From Peptococcaceae bacterium 1109 (GTDB lineage Bacteria; Bacillota; Limnochordia; Darwinibacteriales; Darwinibacteriaceae), in assembly GCA_001028815.1 (NCBI GenBank), contig LDJB01000001.1, forward strand, positions 370,707 to 434,706: DNA of 64,000 nucleotides, read 5' to 3'. Below the pieces are notes generated by a model. It did no database searches, was not told the origin of the DNA, and saw nothing but the letters and a program-made list of their open reading frames with translations. The translations under genes were made by a program, and so were the position numbers. Below are positions 15,346 to 29,487 of the stretch, one piece after another; position 1 is the stretch's first letter, and the number at the start of each line of letters is the position of its first letter.

Positions 15346-16092
15346 TTGTTTAGGGTAATGGTTGTGGCCCCCCAAATGCAGTGCGCGTGGGTGGAGGAGT
15401 ATCTACGGGACCAGCCAGGTATAGAGTTCGTAGGCTGCGAGACTGCCCCTCATAAAGCGGTGGAAGCGGCCGCGGACGTGGCGCCAGATGTGATCCTCCT
15501 CGATGTTGACTTTCCCGATCACAACGGCAGTGCTGTTTTAGCAGAGCTGAAACGGAAGTGGCCGAGGAAACCTGCAGTAATAGTATTATCTGAACGGGGA
15601 GAAGATGAGGCCGTCTACGAGGCCAATCATTTGGGGGCCGATTACTACTTGGTCAAGCCAGTGCAGGATGAGGTGCTCATCCGCCGCATCAGACAGATGG
15701 CTGCGCTGGCGGATGGAGCAAGCTTATGCTCTGCGATTGTGGAAGACTGCGTCCGGAAGAAGGCAGTGGAATACTTCGAGCGCATAGGCATGCCGGCACA
15801 TCTAAAGGGCTACCGCTATCTCATCGAAGCCCTTGTGTTCGTGGTGATGGATCACAGCCTGGCTAATCAGGTGACCAAGCAGCTCTATCCCCGAGTGGCA
15901 AAGCACTTTCAGACAACCCCCATCAGGGTGGAGCGGGCCATCCGGAATGCTATTGAAATCACGTGGGAGCGAGGGAATATCGCCCAGGTGAACCAGCTGT
16001 TTTCTTACGTAGATGAGAACCGGGGAAAGCCCACGAACTCGGCGTTTATCGCAGGCATGGCAGATATTATCAGCTTAGATTTACGCAGGTAA
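15346..16092 (+). CDS. spo0A: sporulation master regulator Spo0A, atypical receiver
   Basis: This is a response regulator of sporulation entry. The C-terminal half (about residues 145-248) is a clear Spo0A effector domain with the recognition segment TTPIRVERAIRNAIEITWERG, which binds 0A boxes in other spore formers. The receiver has the phospho-acceptor candidate Asp53 (ILLDVD), Ser82 and Lys104 (LVKPV). At the end of strand 1 the usual acidic pair is replaced by Ala8-Pro9-Gln10, so Mg2+ binding and phosphorylation may be altered. Start TTG 15346 follows AGGAG. A strong terminator follows. The gene is separated from spoIVB by the fermentation operon and has little room for its own promoter. 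Confidence 0.93.
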   Translation: MFRVMVVAPQMQCAWVEEYLRDQPGIEFVGCETAPHKAVEAAADVAPDVILLDVDFPDHNGSAVLAELKRKWPRKPAVIVLSERGEDEAVYEANHLGADYYLVKPVQDEVLIRRIRQMAALADGASLCSAIVEDCVRKKAVEYFERIGMPAHLKGYRYLIEALVFVVMDHSLANQVTKQLYPRVAKHFQTTPIRVERAIRNAIEITWERGNIAQVNQLFSYVDENRGKPTNSAFIAGMADIISLDLRR

Positions 16093-23219: not shown

Positions 23220-23248
23220 TTTACACAGCTGGTAGGAAGACTTATAAT
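23220..23248 (+). promoter_or_regulatory. sigma-A-type promoter for mlpA
   Basis: TTTACA (23220-23225), 17 bases, then TATAAT (23243-23248), ending 28 bases before the mlpA ATG. The match to the vegetative consensus is near perfect. Confidence 0.82.
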
Positions 23249-23276
23249 GGGTAGGAAATACAAATTGGAGGAGCCT

Positions 23277-24536
23277 ATGTACCACAGGACGTTGCTGCCT
23301 AACGGTGTGCGCATTATAAGTGAACACATACCCTATGTGCGGTCTATCTCCCTGGGCCTCTGGTTTGAGGCGGGCAGCCGGGATGAACTCCTGGAGGAGC
23401 GGGGGTTGGCGCATTTTATTGAACACATGCTGTTTAAGGGCACGGAGCGCTATTCCGCCCGGGACATGGCGGAGCTGATGGACCAGTGCGGCGGACACCT
23501 CAATGCCTTTACTGGAAAGGAACACACCTGCTATTTCGCGCGGGTTTTGGACGAGGATTATCCCATCGCCGTGGACTTGCTCCACCAGATGCTGGTTCAT
23601 TCCTTGTTTGACGAGGCGGAAATAACGAAAGAGCAAGGGGTGGTGCTAGAAGAGCTGAACATGGCTGAGGACGAGCCTGATGAGCTTGTCCACGACTTGG
23701 TGAGTGAAGCGCTGTGGCCCGATCACCCCCTGGGCCGGAACATTTTGGGTGCAAAAGAGACTGTTCTGAAGTTCGATCGCCGAAAAATCTTGGATTTCAT
23801 GGCTCGCAACTACACAACGGGCCGCTTGGTGATTGCGTGCGCGGGGAGCGTTGACCACGAGCGGCTTGTGGATGAGTTCGCTCGCCGGTTTGAGTCCTTG
23901 CCCACCGGTAAACTAGAACCAAAGACGGTTCCGGAACCGGCCCGAGGGCGGGTCCTAATCAAAGAGCGTGATACGGAACAAGTGTACCTCTGCGTGGGAA
24001 TGCCGGCTCTAACCAGGCATGACCTGCGCAAGCCTGCCCTCTACCTGCTAGACAGCATCGTGGGCGGGGGCGTAAGTTCTCTGCTCTTTCAGGAGCTGCG
24101 GGAAGAACGGGGCTTGGTGTATAACACCTACTCGTACCATTCCTCCTACCGAGACACTGGCCTGTTCAGCATATATGCCTCCTTCAGTAGGCAGCATCTA
24201 GATGCGGTGCTCAGTGTTATCCTGGAACAGCTGGGAGGCATCGGCTCGCGGATTAACGATGAGGTGCTGGAGCGGGCAAAGGGGCAGTTTGTGGGGAACC
24301 TCATGCTTTCCTTGGAGAGCATGAGCAACCGCATGACCAACTTGGCCAAGAACGAGATTAACTACGGGCGGATTGTGCCCGTTGACGAACTGGCTGCAGC
24401 TGTGCAACGAGTAACTAAGGACGAGATCATTGAACTAGCGGAGGCCCTCTTCCGTCCTAGCAATCTTTCTGTGGCAGCTGTAGGCCCGGTAGACCATATT
24501 GCGTGGGGGGATCTATGTTGCCGCAAGATATGTTAG
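23277..24536 (+). CDS. mlpA: M16 zinc peptidase (MlpA/YmxG family)
   Basis: This processing-protease-like peptidase of 419 residues has the inverted zinc motif HFIEH (46-50) with the downstream glutamate region VVLEELNMAEDEPDE near residue 125. The C-terminal half carries the inactive-fold region with GGGVSSLLFQELREERGLVY. ATG 23277 follows GGAGGA; an in-frame GTG upstream overlaps the promoter -10. Bacillus MlpA lies beside ylxY and ymxH, as here. It overlaps the next gene by 22 bases. Confidence 0.93.
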   Translation: MYHRTLLPNGVRIISEHIPYVRSISLGLWFEAGSRDELLEERGLAHFIEHMLFKGTERYSARDMAELMDQCGGHLNAFTGKEHTCYFARVLDEDYPIAVDLLHQMLVHSLFDEAEITKEQGVVLEELNMAEDEPDELVHDLVSEALWPDHPLGRNILGAKETVLKFDRRKILDFMARNYTTGRLVIACAGSVDHERLVDEFARRFESLPTGKLEPKTVPEPARGRVLIKERDTEQVYLCVGMPALTRHDLRKPALYLLDSIVGGGVSSLLFQELREERGLVYNTYSYHSSYRDTGLFSIYASFSRQHLDAVLSVILEQLGGIGSRINDEVLERAKGQFVGNLMLSLESMSNRMTNLAKNEINYGRIVPVDELAAAVQRVTKDEIIELAEALFRPSNLSVAAVGPVDHIAWGDLCCRKIC

Positions 24537-24883
24537 TGGAAATTTTCCGCAAGCAAAGGGAGTTTGACTCTGCTCTCGTTGAAAAACGGGCTCTAGACTA
24601 CGATCGGGACACTTGGATACAAAAGGAAATCCTGGCAATTATCGCTGAACTCAGCGAGATTTTGGAGGAAGTAAACTACAAGTGGTGGAAGGATCCCCGT
24701 CCGATCAATGAGGACAAGCTCAAGGAAGAAATTGTGGATGTACTTCACTTCTTTGTGAGTATGTGCATTAAGGCAGGGATTGGCCCGGAGGAGCTCTACC
24801 AGGCGTATATGGAGAAGAATGCGGAGAATTTCCGCAGGCAGCAGGGGCAAAGTGACCGTCCTGGATATGCTTGGACAGAATAA
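24515..24883 (+). CDS. MazG-superfamily (dimeric dUTPase-like) pyrophosphohydrolase
   Basis: This small all-alpha protein of 122 residues has the nucleotide-pyrophosphatase motif ELSEILEE, then KWWKDPRPINEDKL and EEIVDVLHFFVSM. That is the dimeric dUTPase pattern (ExxxE...ExxD). It would hydrolyse dUTP or related dNTPs to monophosphates. ATG 24515 follows a run of six G, and the start region overlaps the end of mlpA, so the two are co-translated. The precise substrate is not proven by sequence. Confidence 0.85.
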   Translation: MLPQDMLVEIFRKQREFDSALVEKRALDYDRDTWIQKEILAIIAELSEILEEVNYKWWKDPRPINEDKLKEEIVDVLHFFVSMCIKAGIGPEELYQAYMEKNAENFRRQQGQSDRPGYAWTE

Positions 24884-24899
24884 CAGAATGTGATATAAT
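24871..24899 (+). promoter_or_regulatory. sigma-A-type promoter for the beta-barrel candidate
   Basis: TTGGAC (24871-24876), 17 bases, then TATAAT (24894-24899). The -35 lies in the last codons of the dUTPase-like gene. The start codon of the next gene is 48 bases downstream. Confidence 0.78.
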
Positions 24900-24946
24900 T
24901 TTCCTATAGACTTCGCGCCCAAGGGAGGCCAAAGGAGTAGATTCCT

Positions 24947-26194
24947 TTGTTCTTGCGCGAAGTCTTTTTTCTTGCCTGTTTGCTGCTGGCTGCTTTAGTT
25001 CCTCCCACGGCTGCTGGGGAACTGCGTTATTCCGGCAGCATCGCGCCTGGCGGAAGCAGCGAGGAGTGGCAGCTCGGCTTCAGCCGCTCTGGGGAAAGCT
25101 GGGCGTTCCACAGCCAGGGAGTGATAGTGCAGGAGGAAGGCCGCATCAAAGGGCCTGTGCTCAAATGGCAGCTGAGCTGGGACCAGGATTGGGCTTCCGT
25201 TCGGGCGGGCAGAGGCTGGCATGCCTTCACTGAACCGAGTGTGTTCCGGATCATGCATGGCAATAACGTCGCTGAAGAAACAAGCATGCTGCTGGCAAGC
25301 CTCGGGGGCTCTACAGCAGGGATGTTTTCCAAACTGCCCCTGGACAACCGCCTCGCGGGAGGTGCCTTTATCCTCGTAGAGCACGCTGCCCCAGGCCTAG
25401 AATTCATGGGCATGCATTTGCGTTACGATACAGGCTATAGCCCCCTCCTTGAACGGCGAGCAGGCCAGGTAGCAGTTCTTCAGGGGATCCATCAATGGCG
25501 CGGCCTCACAGTGACCGGTGCCCTTGGAAGGCATAGGCCCGCGGAGGGGCGTGCATCCCATGGTGTACTTGGGCGTGCATCCTATACCTTCGGGAAGTCT
25601 TCCCTGAACCTGGAGGCTCTGCGCGTTGAGCCCGGCTTTGAGAGCCTGTTCGCGGCGAGCAACAGGTTGACTCCCAACCGCCAGGGCTTTACAGTGGCCT
25701 TCACCCATAAAGGCGAGGACGTGAGCTTGGAATTTCAGGGCCGGGCCCACTGGAACGTTGAGGGGAGCCGTACATATCCCCGCCTGGGCCTAAAGGGCGA
25801 TTTCAAGCGGTTAGGGCTTACCGCCGATCTGCGCGTACTTCCCACCGCAGCTTTGATCTTTACAGGAAAAGAGGGTGCTGCGACCTGGCAGGTTGACCCC
25901 CTCAGGCAATGGCTGCGGGTGGACTGGGCTGGGGAGTACGCTGGGACTCGCCTCAACTTCGATCTCCCGGGTGGAATCGTGAGGCTCCAGGCTGCCTTCA
26001 CCTTTGGAAGCGACTGGCGCTTGGTCTGGAAACGGGACTTTCTGCGGAACCTAAGCCACTTCTCCGCTCGGGCCCGCGTGCCGCTGAAACGAGGGGCCGT
26101 GCAGCTCGAGTGGGGTGAATACGACCGGGGAAACCTCAGAGCGGGCTTTGGTCAGAAGGCCACGTGGCGCATATCATGGGAATGGCAGTTCTAG
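24947..26194 (+). CDS. secreted protein with outer-membrane beta-barrel features
   Basis: The 415-residue protein belongs to no family I recognise. It has a clean signal peptide (about 1-23, ending near PTAAG), then many short amphipathic strands with alternating hydrophobic and polar residues. The last strand TWRISWEWQF ends in Phe, with aromatics at -1, -3 and -5, as in the beta-signal of outer-membrane proteins assembled by BamA. No transmembrane helix follows the signal. This implies an outer membrane, which some Firmicutes have. TTG 24947 lies nine bases after AAAGGAG and behind its own promoter. Function could be a porin or structural protein. Confidence 0.72.
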   Translation: MFLREVFFLACLLLAALVPPTAAGELRYSGSIAPGGSSEEWQLGFSRSGESWAFHSQGVIVQEEGRIKGPVLKWQLSWDQDWASVRAGRGWHAFTEPSVFRIMHGNNVAEETSMLLASLGGSTAGMFSKLPLDNRLAGGAFILVEHAAPGLEFMGMHLRYDTGYSPLLERRAGQVAVLQGIHQWRGLTVTGALGRHRPAEGRASHGVLGRASYTFGKSSLNLEALRVEPGFESLFAASNRLTPNRQGFTVAFTHKGEDVSLEFQGRAHWNVEGSRTYPRLGLKGDFKRLGLTADLRVLPTAALIFTGKEGAATWQVDPLRQWLRVDWAGEYAGTRLNFDLPGGIVRLQAAFTFGSDWRLVWKRDFLRNLSHFSARARVPLKRGAVQLEWGEYDRGNLRAGFGQKATWRISWEWQF

Positions 26195-26233: not shown

Positions 26234-26533
26234 ATGCGGTACTCTGATCTAGCGGGCAAAGAGATTATCGCGGTTGATGAAGGCATTAGGCTGGGGGTAG
26301 TTGACCACACCGATCTGGTGATCAATACTCGCACTGGAGAAGTGGATTCGATCATCATCCCCTATGGCCGGCGGTTGTGGGGAAACAAAGTGGTGGTCAT
26401 CCCATGGCGGGGAATCACTAAGATCGGGCGGGACTTTATCATCGTGGATCTCAGCACCGCCACGGACTATGGTGATACCCTAAGGCGGATTGAAGCAGGA
26501 CAGCGGCGGAATAAGCCTCTGTTTTCCGGGTAG
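26234..26533 (+). CDS. ymxH: PRC-barrel sporulation protein YlmC/YmxH
   Basis: The 99-residue PRC-barrel protein (MRYSDLAGKEIIAVDEG, then GEVDSIIIPYGRRLWG and VVIPWRGITKIGRDFIIV) matches the YlmC/YmxH family of spore formers. ATG 26234 follows GAGGTGAG. Its place upstream of the dipicolinate genes is that of ymxH in Bacillus. The molecular role is unknown; PRC barrels bind RNA or protein partners. Confidence 0.9.
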   Translation: MRYSDLAGKEIIAVDEGIRLGVVDHTDLVINTRTGEVDSIIIPYGRRLWGNKVVVIPWRGITKIGRDFIIVDLSTATDYGDTLRRIEAGQRRNKPLFSG

Positions 26534-26597
26534 AATAACTCCCAGTAGGGTATCAGGGCAAGGAGCACTGGTTCCCGAGAAACAAAGGGGGGATTTA

Positions 26598-27104
26598 ATG
26601 TCTACCGTTATCGGAGTTTTCCGCGATGTGAAGTCAGCTGAGGAGGCTGTACGGAGCTTGCGGAACAACGGCTTCGAGGAGAATGAGATATCCATTATTG
26701 CCAAGGATGACAGGGGTAAGACCGTTAAGCAAGACATGGAAGTCGGCGGCGAGATGGGAATGGGCCAGGAAAACATCGCTGATGGTACCGCTTGGGGTGG
26801 GGCCTTAGGCGGCGTAGCGGGCCTTCTGGCAGGCGTTGGTGCCCTGGCAATTCCCGGGATTGGCCCGATTGTGGCCGCTGGCCCGCTCGCAGGCGCTTTG
26901 TCGGGGGCCGTTACTGGAGGCGTGGCAGGCGGCTTGCTCGATCTGGGTATTCCTGAGGAGCGGGGGCGCGAATACGAGAATGAGCTGAAACAAGGCGGCA
27001 TACTAGCAGTAGTGGAAACTAGTGAGGATAAGGTAAACGACGCAAGCGCGATCTTACGGAAAAACGGCGCCAAGGACGTGGAAGCACACGGCGGAAAGCA
27101 GTAA
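26598..27104 (+). CDS. YflT/general-stress-17M-like protein with glycine-rich centre
   Basis: The 168-residue protein begins with a YflT-type domain (VIGVFRDVKSAEEAVRSLRNNGFEENEI is the visible pattern, residues 4-31). A Gly/Ala-rich hydrophobic stretch follows (about 70-120, like a glycine zipper inserting in membranes), then a tail with VVETSEDKVNDASAILRKNGAKDVE. Such proteins are stress-induced in Bacillus. ATG 26598 lies after GGGGGG; the frame is open upstream but has no homology. It is monocistronic by its terminator and interrupts the ymxH-dapB block. Confidence 0.78.
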   Translation: MSTVIGVFRDVKSAEEAVRSLRNNGFEENEISIIAKDDRGKTVKQDMEVGGEMGMGQENIADGTAWGGALGGVAGLLAGVGALAIPGIGPIVAAGPLAGALSGAVTGGVAGGLLDLGIPEERGREYENELKQGGILAVVETSEDKVNDASAILRKNGAKDVEAHGGKQ

Positions 27105-27124
27105 GGATAAATGACGAGACCCTG

Positions 27125-27153
27125 AGGGACCGCGGACATGCGGTCCCTTTTTT
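27125..27153 (+). terminator. intrinsic terminator after the YflT-like gene
   Basis: AGGGACCGC (27125-27133) pairs perfectly with GCGGTCCCT (27140-27148) around a six-base loop. The T tract runs through 27153. Confidence 0.92.
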
Positions 27154-27229
27154 GGGAGTGGGGCAAGAAGGAACAGTGAATGGGGGGCGAGAAATCACTG
27201 AGGTAACACAAGGGAAAGGGGCTGCTTAA

Positions 27230-27958
27230 GTGAAAGTACTAGTAGCCGGCTCCGCCGGTAAAATGGGACAAGAAGTCGTGAAGTTGGTGAAGGGTACCCC
27301 CGGGTTTGAGCTGGTAGGGGGAGTGGATCCTTCCGGAAGGCAAGTTGCGGGAGAGCGTGTCTTTCCTCACTTGGCATCTGCTTTGCTCCAGGTGGCCCCT
27401 GATGTCGTAGTTGATTTCACAACGCCTCAGGCGGTCCAGGAGAACATGGAACTCTGCTGTGAAGCTCGCATCCCAATGGTGGTGGGCACCACTGGGCTAT
27501 CAGCAGCGGACTTGGAAAAGTGGCAGGAGAGGGGCAAAGAGGCCGGGTGGCGGGCCATTGTCGCTCCCAACTTCGCCATCGGCGCGATCCTTATGATGCG
27601 ATTTGCCCGGGAAGCTGCCCAGTTCATCCAAGATGTGGAGATCATAGAGTATCACCATGCTCAGAAGAAGGATGCCCCTTCAGGTACTGCTCTCGGTACT
27701 GCTCAGCAGTTGGAAGCCATCCTCGGGCGGCCTGTACCCATCCACAGTGTGCGCCTCCCTGGATTGGTAGCTCATCAAGAGGTGGTTTTCGGCCTGCATG
27801 GGCAGACGCTCACCGTGCGCCACGACTCAACCAGCAGAGAGAGCTTTATGCCCGGTGTCAAGCTGGCAATTGAGAACATAAGCCGAGTTCAGGGAGTTGT
27901 AGTAGGCCTGGAACACTTCCTCTTTTCCCCCACACCTTTAGAGGAGTTGCACATATAG
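27230..27958 (+). CDS. dapB: 4-hydroxy-tetrahydrodipicolinate reductase
   Basis: This enzyme reduces the dapA product to tetrahydrodipicolinate with NAD(P)H, on the way to diaminopimelate and lysine. The Rossmann start VAGSAGKMGQEVVKLV and the catalytic YHHAQKKDAPSGTAL near residue 140 are clear. The 242-residue length is slightly short but complete. The GTG start lies behind AAAGGGG. It heads the dapB-dpaA-dpaB-asd-dapG-dapA run, which makes both cell-wall precursor and spore dipicolinate. Confidence 0.95.
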   Translation: MKVLVAGSAGKMGQEVVKLVKGTPGFELVGGVDPSGRQVAGERVFPHLASALLQVAPDVVVDFTTPQAVQENMELCCEARIPMVVGTTGLSAADLEKWQERGKEAGWRAIVAPNFAIGAILMMRFAREAAQFIQDVEIIEYHHAQKKDAPSGTALGTAQQLEAILGRPVPIHSVRLPGLVAHQEVVFGLHGQTLTVRHDSTSRESFMPGVKLAIENISRVQGVVVGLEHFLFSPTPLEELHI

Positions 27959-27989
27959 TAAAAGTGAGTTGGTGGGGGGAGGGTGTTTC

Positions 27990-28895
27990 ATGGCGAGCCC
28001 GTTGGCGCATGTACCCATCTGCATGCTCGGTGGTGATACTAGGGAAGTACTGCTCGCGGAGGCCCTTGTTAAAATGGAGGCAGATCTTCGCCTGGTGGGT
28101 TTCATCTCCCAGGGAGAACTGGCCAACGCGGCTCACTTTGCCGATCCGGTGCAGGCAGCCAAAGGCTGCCGGGTGGTCCTAGGCCCCATGTCCAACACTG
28201 ACTTGGCCGGCCTGATTACAACCACGCCCGATCCAAGCTGTGAGCCAATAGATATGCCGGCAGTCCTTGCCAGCCTATCTCCTGGGACCATTGTTTTTAT
28301 CGGGGTCGCCAAACCCATAATCAAGCGGCTCGCAAAGACCTATCGGCTTCACTTGATGGAGACTGCTGCCATCGATGAGATTGCTGTCCTGAACTCGGTG
28401 CCGACCGCGGAAGGGGCTCTTCAGGTAGCCATGGAAGAAACCCAGATAACGCTGCACGGTTCAGAGTGCCTCGTGGTAGGGTTAGGGCGCTGTGGCTTGG
28501 CCATCACTCAGCGCCTGTTAGCCTTAGGTGCGGGGGTCACAGTGGCTGCCCGGTCCCGGGGAGATCTGGCCCGGGCGGCGGTGCTAGGGGCCCGCGGCTT
28601 GGAGCTGGGGAAGCTTGCAACAATGACCGCTTTCGATCTGGTCTTCAATACTGTCCCCGCCTTAGTGCTGCCCAGGTCTTACCTGCGGCTGCTGAATCCT
28701 GCGGTGGTGATTATCGATATTGCCTCCAGCCCCGGAGGCACTGATTTTGAAGCCGCGCGACAGCTGGGCATCAGAGCCATCCACGCCTTGTCACTTCCGG
28801 GAAAGGTCGCTCCCATCACTGCAGGGCAGATCTTAGTCCAGGCCATCCCCCGCCTCCTCGAGAACCTGTTGGGGGAGGAAAACCATGACTCTTGA
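27990..28895 (+). CDS. dpaA: dipicolinate synthase subunit A
   Basis: DpaA (SpoVFA) with DpaB oxidises the dapA product to dipicolinic acid in the mother cell. The 301-residue protein has a Rossmann NAD(P) site CLVVGLGRCGLAITQRLLALG near residue 155 and an N-terminal GGDTREVLLAEAL. I chose ATG 27990 behind the GGGGGGAGGGTG run; GTG 27969 is in frame but lies in that ribosome site. The 3' end overlaps dpaB by 11 bases. Confidence 0.94.
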   Translation: MASPLAHVPICMLGGDTREVLLAEALVKMEADLRLVGFISQGELANAAHFADPVQAAKGCRVVLGPMSNTDLAGLITTTPDPSCEPIDMPAVLASLSPGTIVFIGVAKPIIKRLAKTYRLHLMETAAIDEIAVLNSVPTAEGALQVAMEETQITLHGSECLVVGLGRCGLAITQRLLALGAGVTVAARSRGDLARAAVLGARGLELGKLATMTAFDLVFNTVPALVLPRSYLRLLNPAVVIIDIASSPGGTDFEAARQLGIRAIHALSLPGKVAPITAGQILVQAIPRLLENLLGEENHDS

Positions 28896-29487
28896 GGGAA
28901 AACAGATCGGCTTTGCCTTGACCGGCAGCCACTGCACCTATGAGGAGATCTGGCCTGAGGTGGAGAAGTTGGTTCAGCTGGGGGCAGATGTTTACCCCAT
29001 TGTATCTCCGAGCGTTGCCCACACCGATACCCGCTTCGGCAAGGCCGCGGATATTGTTGCCCGCTTCGAAGGCCTTACCGGGAAAAAGGTGATCTCAACG
29101 ATCGTGGAAGCAGAGCCCTTAGGGCCCAAGAAGCTGTTTCATTGCATGATTATCGCGCCATGTACAGGCAACACTATGGCGAAGCTTGCCAACGCCATCA
29201 CTGATACAGCCCCACTGATGGCCGCCAAAGCCCAGCTGCGGAACGGGCGGCCTTTGGTGTTGGCCATCTCTACAAATGATGCTTTGGGGTTGAATGCGAA
29301 AAACTTGGGCATCTTGCTCAGCACCCCCAACGTGTTTTTTGTGCCCTTTGGCCAAGATAACCCCGGGGAGAAACCTCGATCGCTAGTTGCTGATATGAAA
29401 CTAATCTGCCCTACCATTGCCTGCGCCTTGCAGGGAGAGCAGATTCAGCCGACAGTTATAGCCCGCAATCTGCGAAATGTTCGTTAG
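28885..29487 (+). CDS. dpaB: dipicolinate synthase subunit B (flavoprotein)
   Basis: This 200-residue flavoprotein-fold subunit begins GKQIGFALTGSHCTYEEIWP and has MIIAPCTGNTMAKLANAITD near residue 88, as in SpoVFB. With DpaA it makes dipicolinate for the spore core. ATG 28885 follows GGGGGAGG. It is flanked by dpaA and asd as in Bacillus. Expression is expected in the mother cell, but the sequence shows no separate promoter here. Confidence 0.95.
   Translation: MTLEGKQIGFALTGSHCTYEEIWPEVEKLVQLGADVYPIVSPSVAHTDTRFGKAADIVARFEGLTGKKVISTIVEAEPLGPKKLFHCMIIAPCTGNTMAKLANAITDTAPLMAAKAQLRNGRPLVLAISTNDALGLNAKNLGILLSTPNVFFVPFGQDNPGEKPRSLVADMKLICPTIACALQGEQIQPTVIARNLRNVR

Follow-up and report, generated by a model that had tools for sequence, protein, structure and literature searches.

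Results

Genes and features at the locus

The window (the whole 64,000-nucleotide stretch of DNA analysed here) is part of a 1.13-Mb contig; the genome measures 2.7 Mb. It bears an intact gene for a 415-aa protein, preceded by its own promoter and by a terminator-like leader hairpin that reaches into the coding sequence (Table 1). A preliminary description of this DNA had proposed that the gene encodes an outer-membrane (OM) beta-barrel of a spore former and is transcribed from a sigma-A promoter of its own. Such a promoter is indeed found, and it is conserved in the homologues.

The features on which the barrel proposal rested are borne out. A hydrophobic N-terminus, modelled with low pLDDT as a helix over residues 2-16, constitutes the predicted signal peptide, and the first strand of the mature protein begins at residue 23. 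The final strand, TWRISWEWQF, has F at position -1 and W at -3 and -5, and the terminal residue is F or W in all complete homologues of the order-level alignment except the most distant one (L070). The alternation of polar and apolar residues over the 26 predicted strands, described before as a series of amphipathic strands, exceeds that of within-strand shuffles (z ~3). The protein has no family match in Pfam, NCBIfam or PDB sequences, and a profile search against PDB sequences gave chance matches only. Identity with Porin_4, suggested by one homologue only (E = 0.0023), was rejected as too weak. Scanning genome contigs with the protein itself as query returned no matches; the relatives named by a scan with alignment A4 are all unclassified Bacillota MAGs, among them UBA5493, UBA4996 and UBA5420.

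Table 1. Coordinates of the features at the locus (positions in the window)
Feature	Position	Strand	Evidence or remark
M16 peptidase and dUTPase-like gene (upstream neighbours)	23247..24883	+	gene order shared by other families of the class
Sigma-A-type promoter TGGACA-16-TATAAT with extended TG	24872..24899	+	scan match 11/12; TATAAT-like box conserved upstream of homologues
Conserved leader hairpin, terminator-like, 65 nt, enclosing ribosome-binding site and start codon	24909..24973	+	covariance model R1, 67 bits
Outer stem, 5' arm GACTTCGCGC	24909..24918	+	pairs with 24955-24964
Inner hairpin CAAAGGA/TCCTTTG	24930..24949	+	Shine-Dalgarno AAAGGAG (24931-24937) pairs with start-codon stretch
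Gene for predicted OM beta-barrel, 415 aa, TTG start, intact, signal peptide and ~26 predicted strands	24947..26194	+	
Outer stem, 3' arm GCGCGAAGTC, codons 3-6	24955..24964	+	fold
T-run immediately 3' of the stem, TTT TTT (Phe-Phe)	24965..24970	+	early-Phe codon bias
Predicted long conserved outer loop, residues 90-112	25214..25282	+	column conservation 0.58 (0.45 in strands)
Predicted long conserved outer loop, residues 228-244	25628..25678	+	column conservation 0.67
Predicted long conserved outer loop, residues 390-406, GEYDRGN..AGF	26114..26164	+	column conservation 0.67
C-terminal strand with beta-signal WRISWEWQF	26165..26191	+	sequence; homologues end in F or W
YlmC/YmxH, Gly-zipper protein, dapB, dpaA, dpaB (downstream neighbours)	26234..29487	+	

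Predicted fold of the 415-aa protein

In an AlphaFold2 model made with 24 homologues (mean pLDDT 92.8, pTM 0.80), the signal helix is followed by 26 antiparallel amphipathic strands, an even number, with short turns on one side only. If strand 1 is taken as running outward, the periplasmic turns are all of 2-4 residues and three outer loops are of 17-23 residues. A distant homologue, with 15-19% identity to the other rows of alignment A5, is modelled with the same all-strand layout (pLDDT 85.6). A fold other than a barrel had been named as grounds for abandoning the proposal; the predicted fold is that of a large OM-type barrel, so the proposal stands on this point. Structure comparison also returned OM barrels, namely the PapC usher, the OprD/Occ porins, AlgE and Veillonella OmpM1, all with high rmsd (4.8-8 Å). 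Closure of the barrel and the strand number of about 26 are as predicted by AlphaFold2.

The model thus presents the 415-aa protein as a previously unnamed, large, plug-less OM beta-barrel; it would depend on Sec for its export and on the BamA of the same genome for its insertion (see below). The lack of any curated family match would also suit a soluble or surface beta protein; however, given the signal peptide, the beta-signal, the one-sided short turns, the confident barrel-like model and the presence of BamA, we consider that alternative extremely improbable.

The three long outer loops are more conserved than the strands (Table 1), and G390, D393, G395 and F401 are invariant in alignment A3. 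On the polar strand face of the second half, R245, R296, R324, R346, R358, K362, D326, D364 and E388 are invariant or nearly so. Because this ladder of conserved Arg/Lys and Asp/Glu is predicted to face the lumen and is accompanied by three long conserved outer loops, the conservation pattern suggests that the protein is neither a receptor nor an enzyme but a substrate-selective channel. The lumen of the barrel is probably charged, and its outer loops probably fold inward.

Two membranes in a spore-forming lineage

If the barrel is real, the preliminary description argued, the organism has two membranes, and BamA, lpx genes, SLH-type porins and OmpM were named as the genes to look for, a genome with no BamA homologue being further grounds for abandoning the proposal. 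An Omp85 domain (PF01103, 191 bits) with POTRA, that is, BamA, is encoded on the same contig as the window, so the proposal stands on this point too. It belongs to an OM cluster ~325 kb from the window that comprises flgH, flgI, bamA, ompH/skp, an LptD-like gene (L031:320-2506) and the genes for LptC, LptA and LpxB, together with a SpoIVB-like gene and genes for a FabZ-like protein and an LptB-type ATPase (these three named by eye). FlgH and FlgI are the L- and P-ring proteins of the flagellum. An 818-aa SLH-barrel protein of the OmpM type (L031:10705-13161) is also clustered near bamA. In the genome, SLH domains occur at two loci other than that of the 415-aa protein. Across the genomes sampled, Omp85 was found in 59 of 61.

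Several other genes of this region were observed. The SpoIVB-like peptidase gene (L030:13233-15020) is directly 5' of bamA, beside the OM assembly cluster. A 202-aa secreted protein ending in RYRLAF (L030:18586-19194), whose gene adjoins ompH/skp, has no Pfam family and is a candidate small OM barrel; a 434-aa secreted protein ending in EFSIKF (L031:13776-15080), encoded soon after the OmpM-like gene, likewise has no Pfam family and is a candidate OM protein. A secreted protein of 1151 aa (L031:16108-19563) carries many tandem repeats resembling the SLBB repeats of polysaccharide export.

The setting is that of an endospore former, as had been described: the genome encodes Spo0A (two copies), DpaA, DpaB and YlmC/YmxH, and the Dpa and YlmC/YmxH genes are inside the window. 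The two genes with a Spo0A_C domain are at 15772-16065 of the window and at G000:C1:696275-696574. With BamA, OmpH, LptA/B/C, the LptD-like protein, LpxB, OmpM, FlgH and FlgI all encoded on the contig of the window, the genotype of the organism is that of a two-membrane spore former of the Bacillota, very probably of the Limnochordia. As bamA is on one and the same contig as spo0A and the window, contamination was rejected as its source. Diderm Bacillota are already known, Limnochordia included (PMC11456536, PMC11448272, PMC5007114), and an OM gene cluster has been described in the Limnochordia (PMC11456536, PMC11448272); the two-membrane claim is therefore right but not new.

The lpx genes fit the expectation in part. 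The genome retains LpxB, LptA, LptC, an LptB-type ATPase and an LptD-like protein (L031:7208-8368 among the loci), and neither LpxC nor LpxA (searched as Acetyltransf_11) was found there, nor was TamB. No LpxC was found among the order's 37 genomes, nor among the three of family f6; it is present in all 21 other genomes of the class sampled. Since LpxC is absent in the order and LpxA was not found, while LpxB and the Lpt proteins are kept, the gene content indicates that in this order the lipid of the outer leaflet may be something other than ordinary lipid A and may be non-canonical.

Distribution of the gene family and its locus

In profile searches, homologues of the gene (hereafter OMP gene) were found in 31 of the 37 genomes of the order, representing 18 of 18 genera, and weak matches (E from 6e-4 to 4e-11) were found elsewhere in the class, in families f6, f8, f10, f11 and f16. 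The usual gene order in most homologues is M16 peptidase, dUTPase, OMP, ymxH, dapB. In the loci read from f10, f11 and f16, the OMP gene is preceded by the M16 peptidase and dUTPase genes and followed by dapB and the gene for the Gly-zipper protein, and several of these loci have ymxH as well; f8 has different genes upstream, and in f5 dapB is downstream.

A conserved leader hairpin enclosing the ribosome-binding site and the start codon

Conservation of the DNA from the promoter to codon 8 exceeds that of the protein. The consensus of the order at the transcript start is ACTCCGCGCCCA(A)GGGAGATGTCCAAAGGAG...CTTTTGTACATGCGCGGAGTTTTTTTT, in which the CCCA(A)GGGA bulge is nearly invariant. The outer stem pairs ACTCCGCGC with GCGCGGAGT in the consensus and GACTTCGCGC with GCGCGAAGTC in the window, which is a compensatory change: one C-G pair is replaced by U-A in this genus and in genome G005. 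In the inner hairpin, the CAAAGGA arm holds the Shine-Dalgarno and the TCCTTTG arm holds the TTG start codon. The T-run follows the stem directly, and thus the shape of an intrinsic terminator, a stem and then a T-run 3' of a promoter, is laid over the first codons of the gene.

Several lines of evidence bear on this structure. About 94% of the alignment cells pair both in alignment A1 (22 sequences, 6 pairs changed on both sides) and in alignment A7 (25 sequences, 9 pairs changed on both sides), whereas control structures slid along the alignment bring pairing down to 33-66%. The covariation score of A7 was reached by 0 of 500 shuffles; A7 was aligned by, and fitted to, the covariance model, and its sequences are related, which inflates the covariation counts. 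The minimum free energy of the window leader is -28.4 kcal/mol (z -4.3), and three relatives have z from -3.5 to -6.0. The mean unpaired probability of the Shine-Dalgarno is 0.11 in the window sequence, and the site is mostly paired in most homologues too. The early Phe codons are TTT rather than TTC in a ratio of 38:4, against 264:195 in the remainder of the genes, although the sequences are related and a p-value on these counts would be optimistic. Among 58 ORF starts with a Shine-Dalgarno in four regions of this genome, only two are inside a hairpin with a T-rich tail.

In Rfam, the window leader has two chance matches only (E 3.9 and 8.9), and the leaders of six relatives have none at the gathering cut-offs. 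The hairpin of the flagged gene therefore has no Rfam family, and the leader, on which the preliminary description had not remarked, is the new part of the finding.

Since the hairpin is just 3' of the M16 peptidase-dUTPase operon, it could be a mere terminator of that operon. However, the operon is separated from the hairpin by a conserved promoter, whose transcripts must run through the hairpin as well; the element keeps a fixed place relative to the start codon and the Shine-Dalgarno; and it is kept at the f5 locus L072, where no dUTPase-like ORF is listed 5' of the gene. We thus regard an operon terminator as very unlikely.

In several of the minimum free energy folds CARGGGA takes the place of the Shine-Dalgarno; a bistable fold built on this exchange was rejected, as constrained energies give it no family-wide support. 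No antiterminator is apparent, because in most members a fold constrained to free the Shine-Dalgarno costs several kcal/mol. The GGA motifs also led us to consider control by CsrA.

Distribution and variants of the leader

The covariance model finds one convincing sense-strand copy per genome, always directly 5' of the OMP gene; antisense matches at the leader sites reflect the palindrome. It matches in families f1, f2, f4, f5 and parts of f3, and within f1-f5 the element is present even where the protein is less than 20% identical. Both the RNA structure, by covariation, and its dedication to the OMP gene are thus evident from the alignments and searches. A regulon, in which further OM genes would be preceded by the element, was considered and dropped, no convincing second copy being found in the own genome. 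In genome G027 the OMP gene has a remnant of the element only, and G032 has a degraded copy, so the element is not indispensable.

In f10, the model has no match, and nine leaders there show another arrangement: a promoter, a terminator-like hairpin (GCCCG...CGGGC with a T-rich tail), and, 3' of it, another hairpin, within which lies the GGAAAGGAG Shine-Dalgarno and, in most of the leaders, also the GTG start codon. The terminator-like hairpin of L111 is a variant, GCTCG...CGAGC. Two-hairpin leaders of f10 were observed at loci L105, L106, L107, L111, L113-L116, L118 and L119. In f11 (L109), a stem read by eye holds the Shine-Dalgarno in its loop and ATG in its 3' arm and ends in a T6 tail. 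The strongest reason to think that termination matters is that a terminator shape and a hidden ribosome site recur at one and the same gene.

Two other explanations have to be weighed against these arrangements. The hairpin could be a 5'-terminal stabiliser that protects the mRNA from 5' decay, with the T-run being nothing but Phe codons of the signal peptide. Judged by the -10 box, transcription starts no more than a few bases from the stem, and a long-lived mRNA would fit an abundant OM protein; but a stabiliser needs neither the pairing of the Shine-Dalgarno nor the T-run, TTT is preferred more strongly among the early Phe codons than in the rest of the genes, and the T-rich tail in f10 is upstream of the Shine-Dalgarno. 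This function is therefore unlikely. Purely translational control, in which the hairpin acts as a thermometer or as the target of an sRNA or a protein and no termination takes place, agrees with the covariation of the inner stem and with the largely paired Shine-Dalgarno of most homologues. It would leave unexplained the invariant T-run after the closing stem and the separation of a terminator-like hairpin from a ribosome-binding-site hairpin in f10, and we judge it rather improbable, less so than a stabiliser.

Discussion

A possible attenuator of an OM channel

The reading that we favour, as a little better than an even bet, is that the leader gates expression of the OMP gene as a transcription attenuator of the predicted substrate-selective OM channel. 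Termination at the hairpin, its control and the channel function of the product are inferred from the features above. The nascent RNA would fold into the hairpin within its first 60 bases, with the Shine-Dalgarno paired with the start codon. The default state would be off: RNA polymerase would stop in the T-run within the first codons, and the ribosome site would be hidden. If the stem were held open, read-through would follow, and the same event would free the ribosome site. The opener might be an early-arriving 30S subunit or, equally possibly, a factor on the CCCA(A)GGGA bulge.

A broader principle may be entertained tentatively, namely that across the class an OM channel stands behind a self-terminating hairpin that couples read-through to ribosome access, arranged over the start codon in one order and as two hairpins in another family. 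This generalisation is possible but doubtful; if true, it would represent a new RNA-based switch of OM content in diderm Bacillota.

Diderm spore formers have been used to argue that the ancestor of the Bacillota had two membranes, and the diderm lineages of the Bacillota are close to the transition from double to single membrane. The leader offers a testable regulator of OM protein content in such organisms, and, being recognisable where the protein is less than 20% identical, it is a clean marker and handle. The retention of BamA without LpxC in the order, and of LpxB and the Lpt proteins in the own genome, also bears on the composition of the outer leaflet.

Comparison with known systems

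OprD/Occ porins and AlgE have 18 strands. The OprD/Occ porins and AlgE of Pseudomonas (PDB 2y0h, 4afk; Z ~16 over 270-280 residues) are plug-less barrels with a charged lumen, as predicted here, whereas at ~10% identity they show no sequence relationship with the window protein. OmpM of Veillonella parvula (PMC10628300; PDB 8bys, 8bym; Z ~14.5 over ~246 residues) is, like the window protein as modelled, an OM barrel of diderm Bacillota and a possible nutrient channel; however, OmpM has 16 strands and an SLH stalk and tethers the OM, whereas the window protein has a predicted ~26 strands and no SLH domain, no Pfam family being found in it. Ushers such as PapC and FimD (PDB 7lhh, 9fw9) are very large barrels as well, and PapC gives the best cover (346 residues, Z 17.4, rmsd 4.8). 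In contrast to the window protein, they have a plug, N- and C-terminal periplasmic domains and pilus partners; the mature ~390 residues here are modelled as strands only, with no Pfam match to the usher family. LptD combines a 26-strand barrel with an N-terminal LptA/LptD_N jellyroll domain; identity with it is not indicated either, as the window protein has no such domain in Pfam.

Diderm Bacillota have an OM gene cluster (Taib et al. 2020, cited in PMC11456536) in which OM markers stand together, and bamA, ompH, lpt and ompM are likewise together here. In contrast to that cluster, LpxC and LpxA were not found in this genome, and LpxC is absent from the whole sampled order.

The leader is best compared with the leader attenuators of B. 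subtilis, rplJL (PMC4538822) and vmlR (PMC9226507), in which read-through is set by transcription attenuation within the leader; at vmlR, attenuation acts on both transcription and translation (PMC9226507). In both, control resides in an upstream leader, whereas at the locus described here the terminator shape, the Shine-Dalgarno and the start codon form one hairpin that reaches into the coding sequence.
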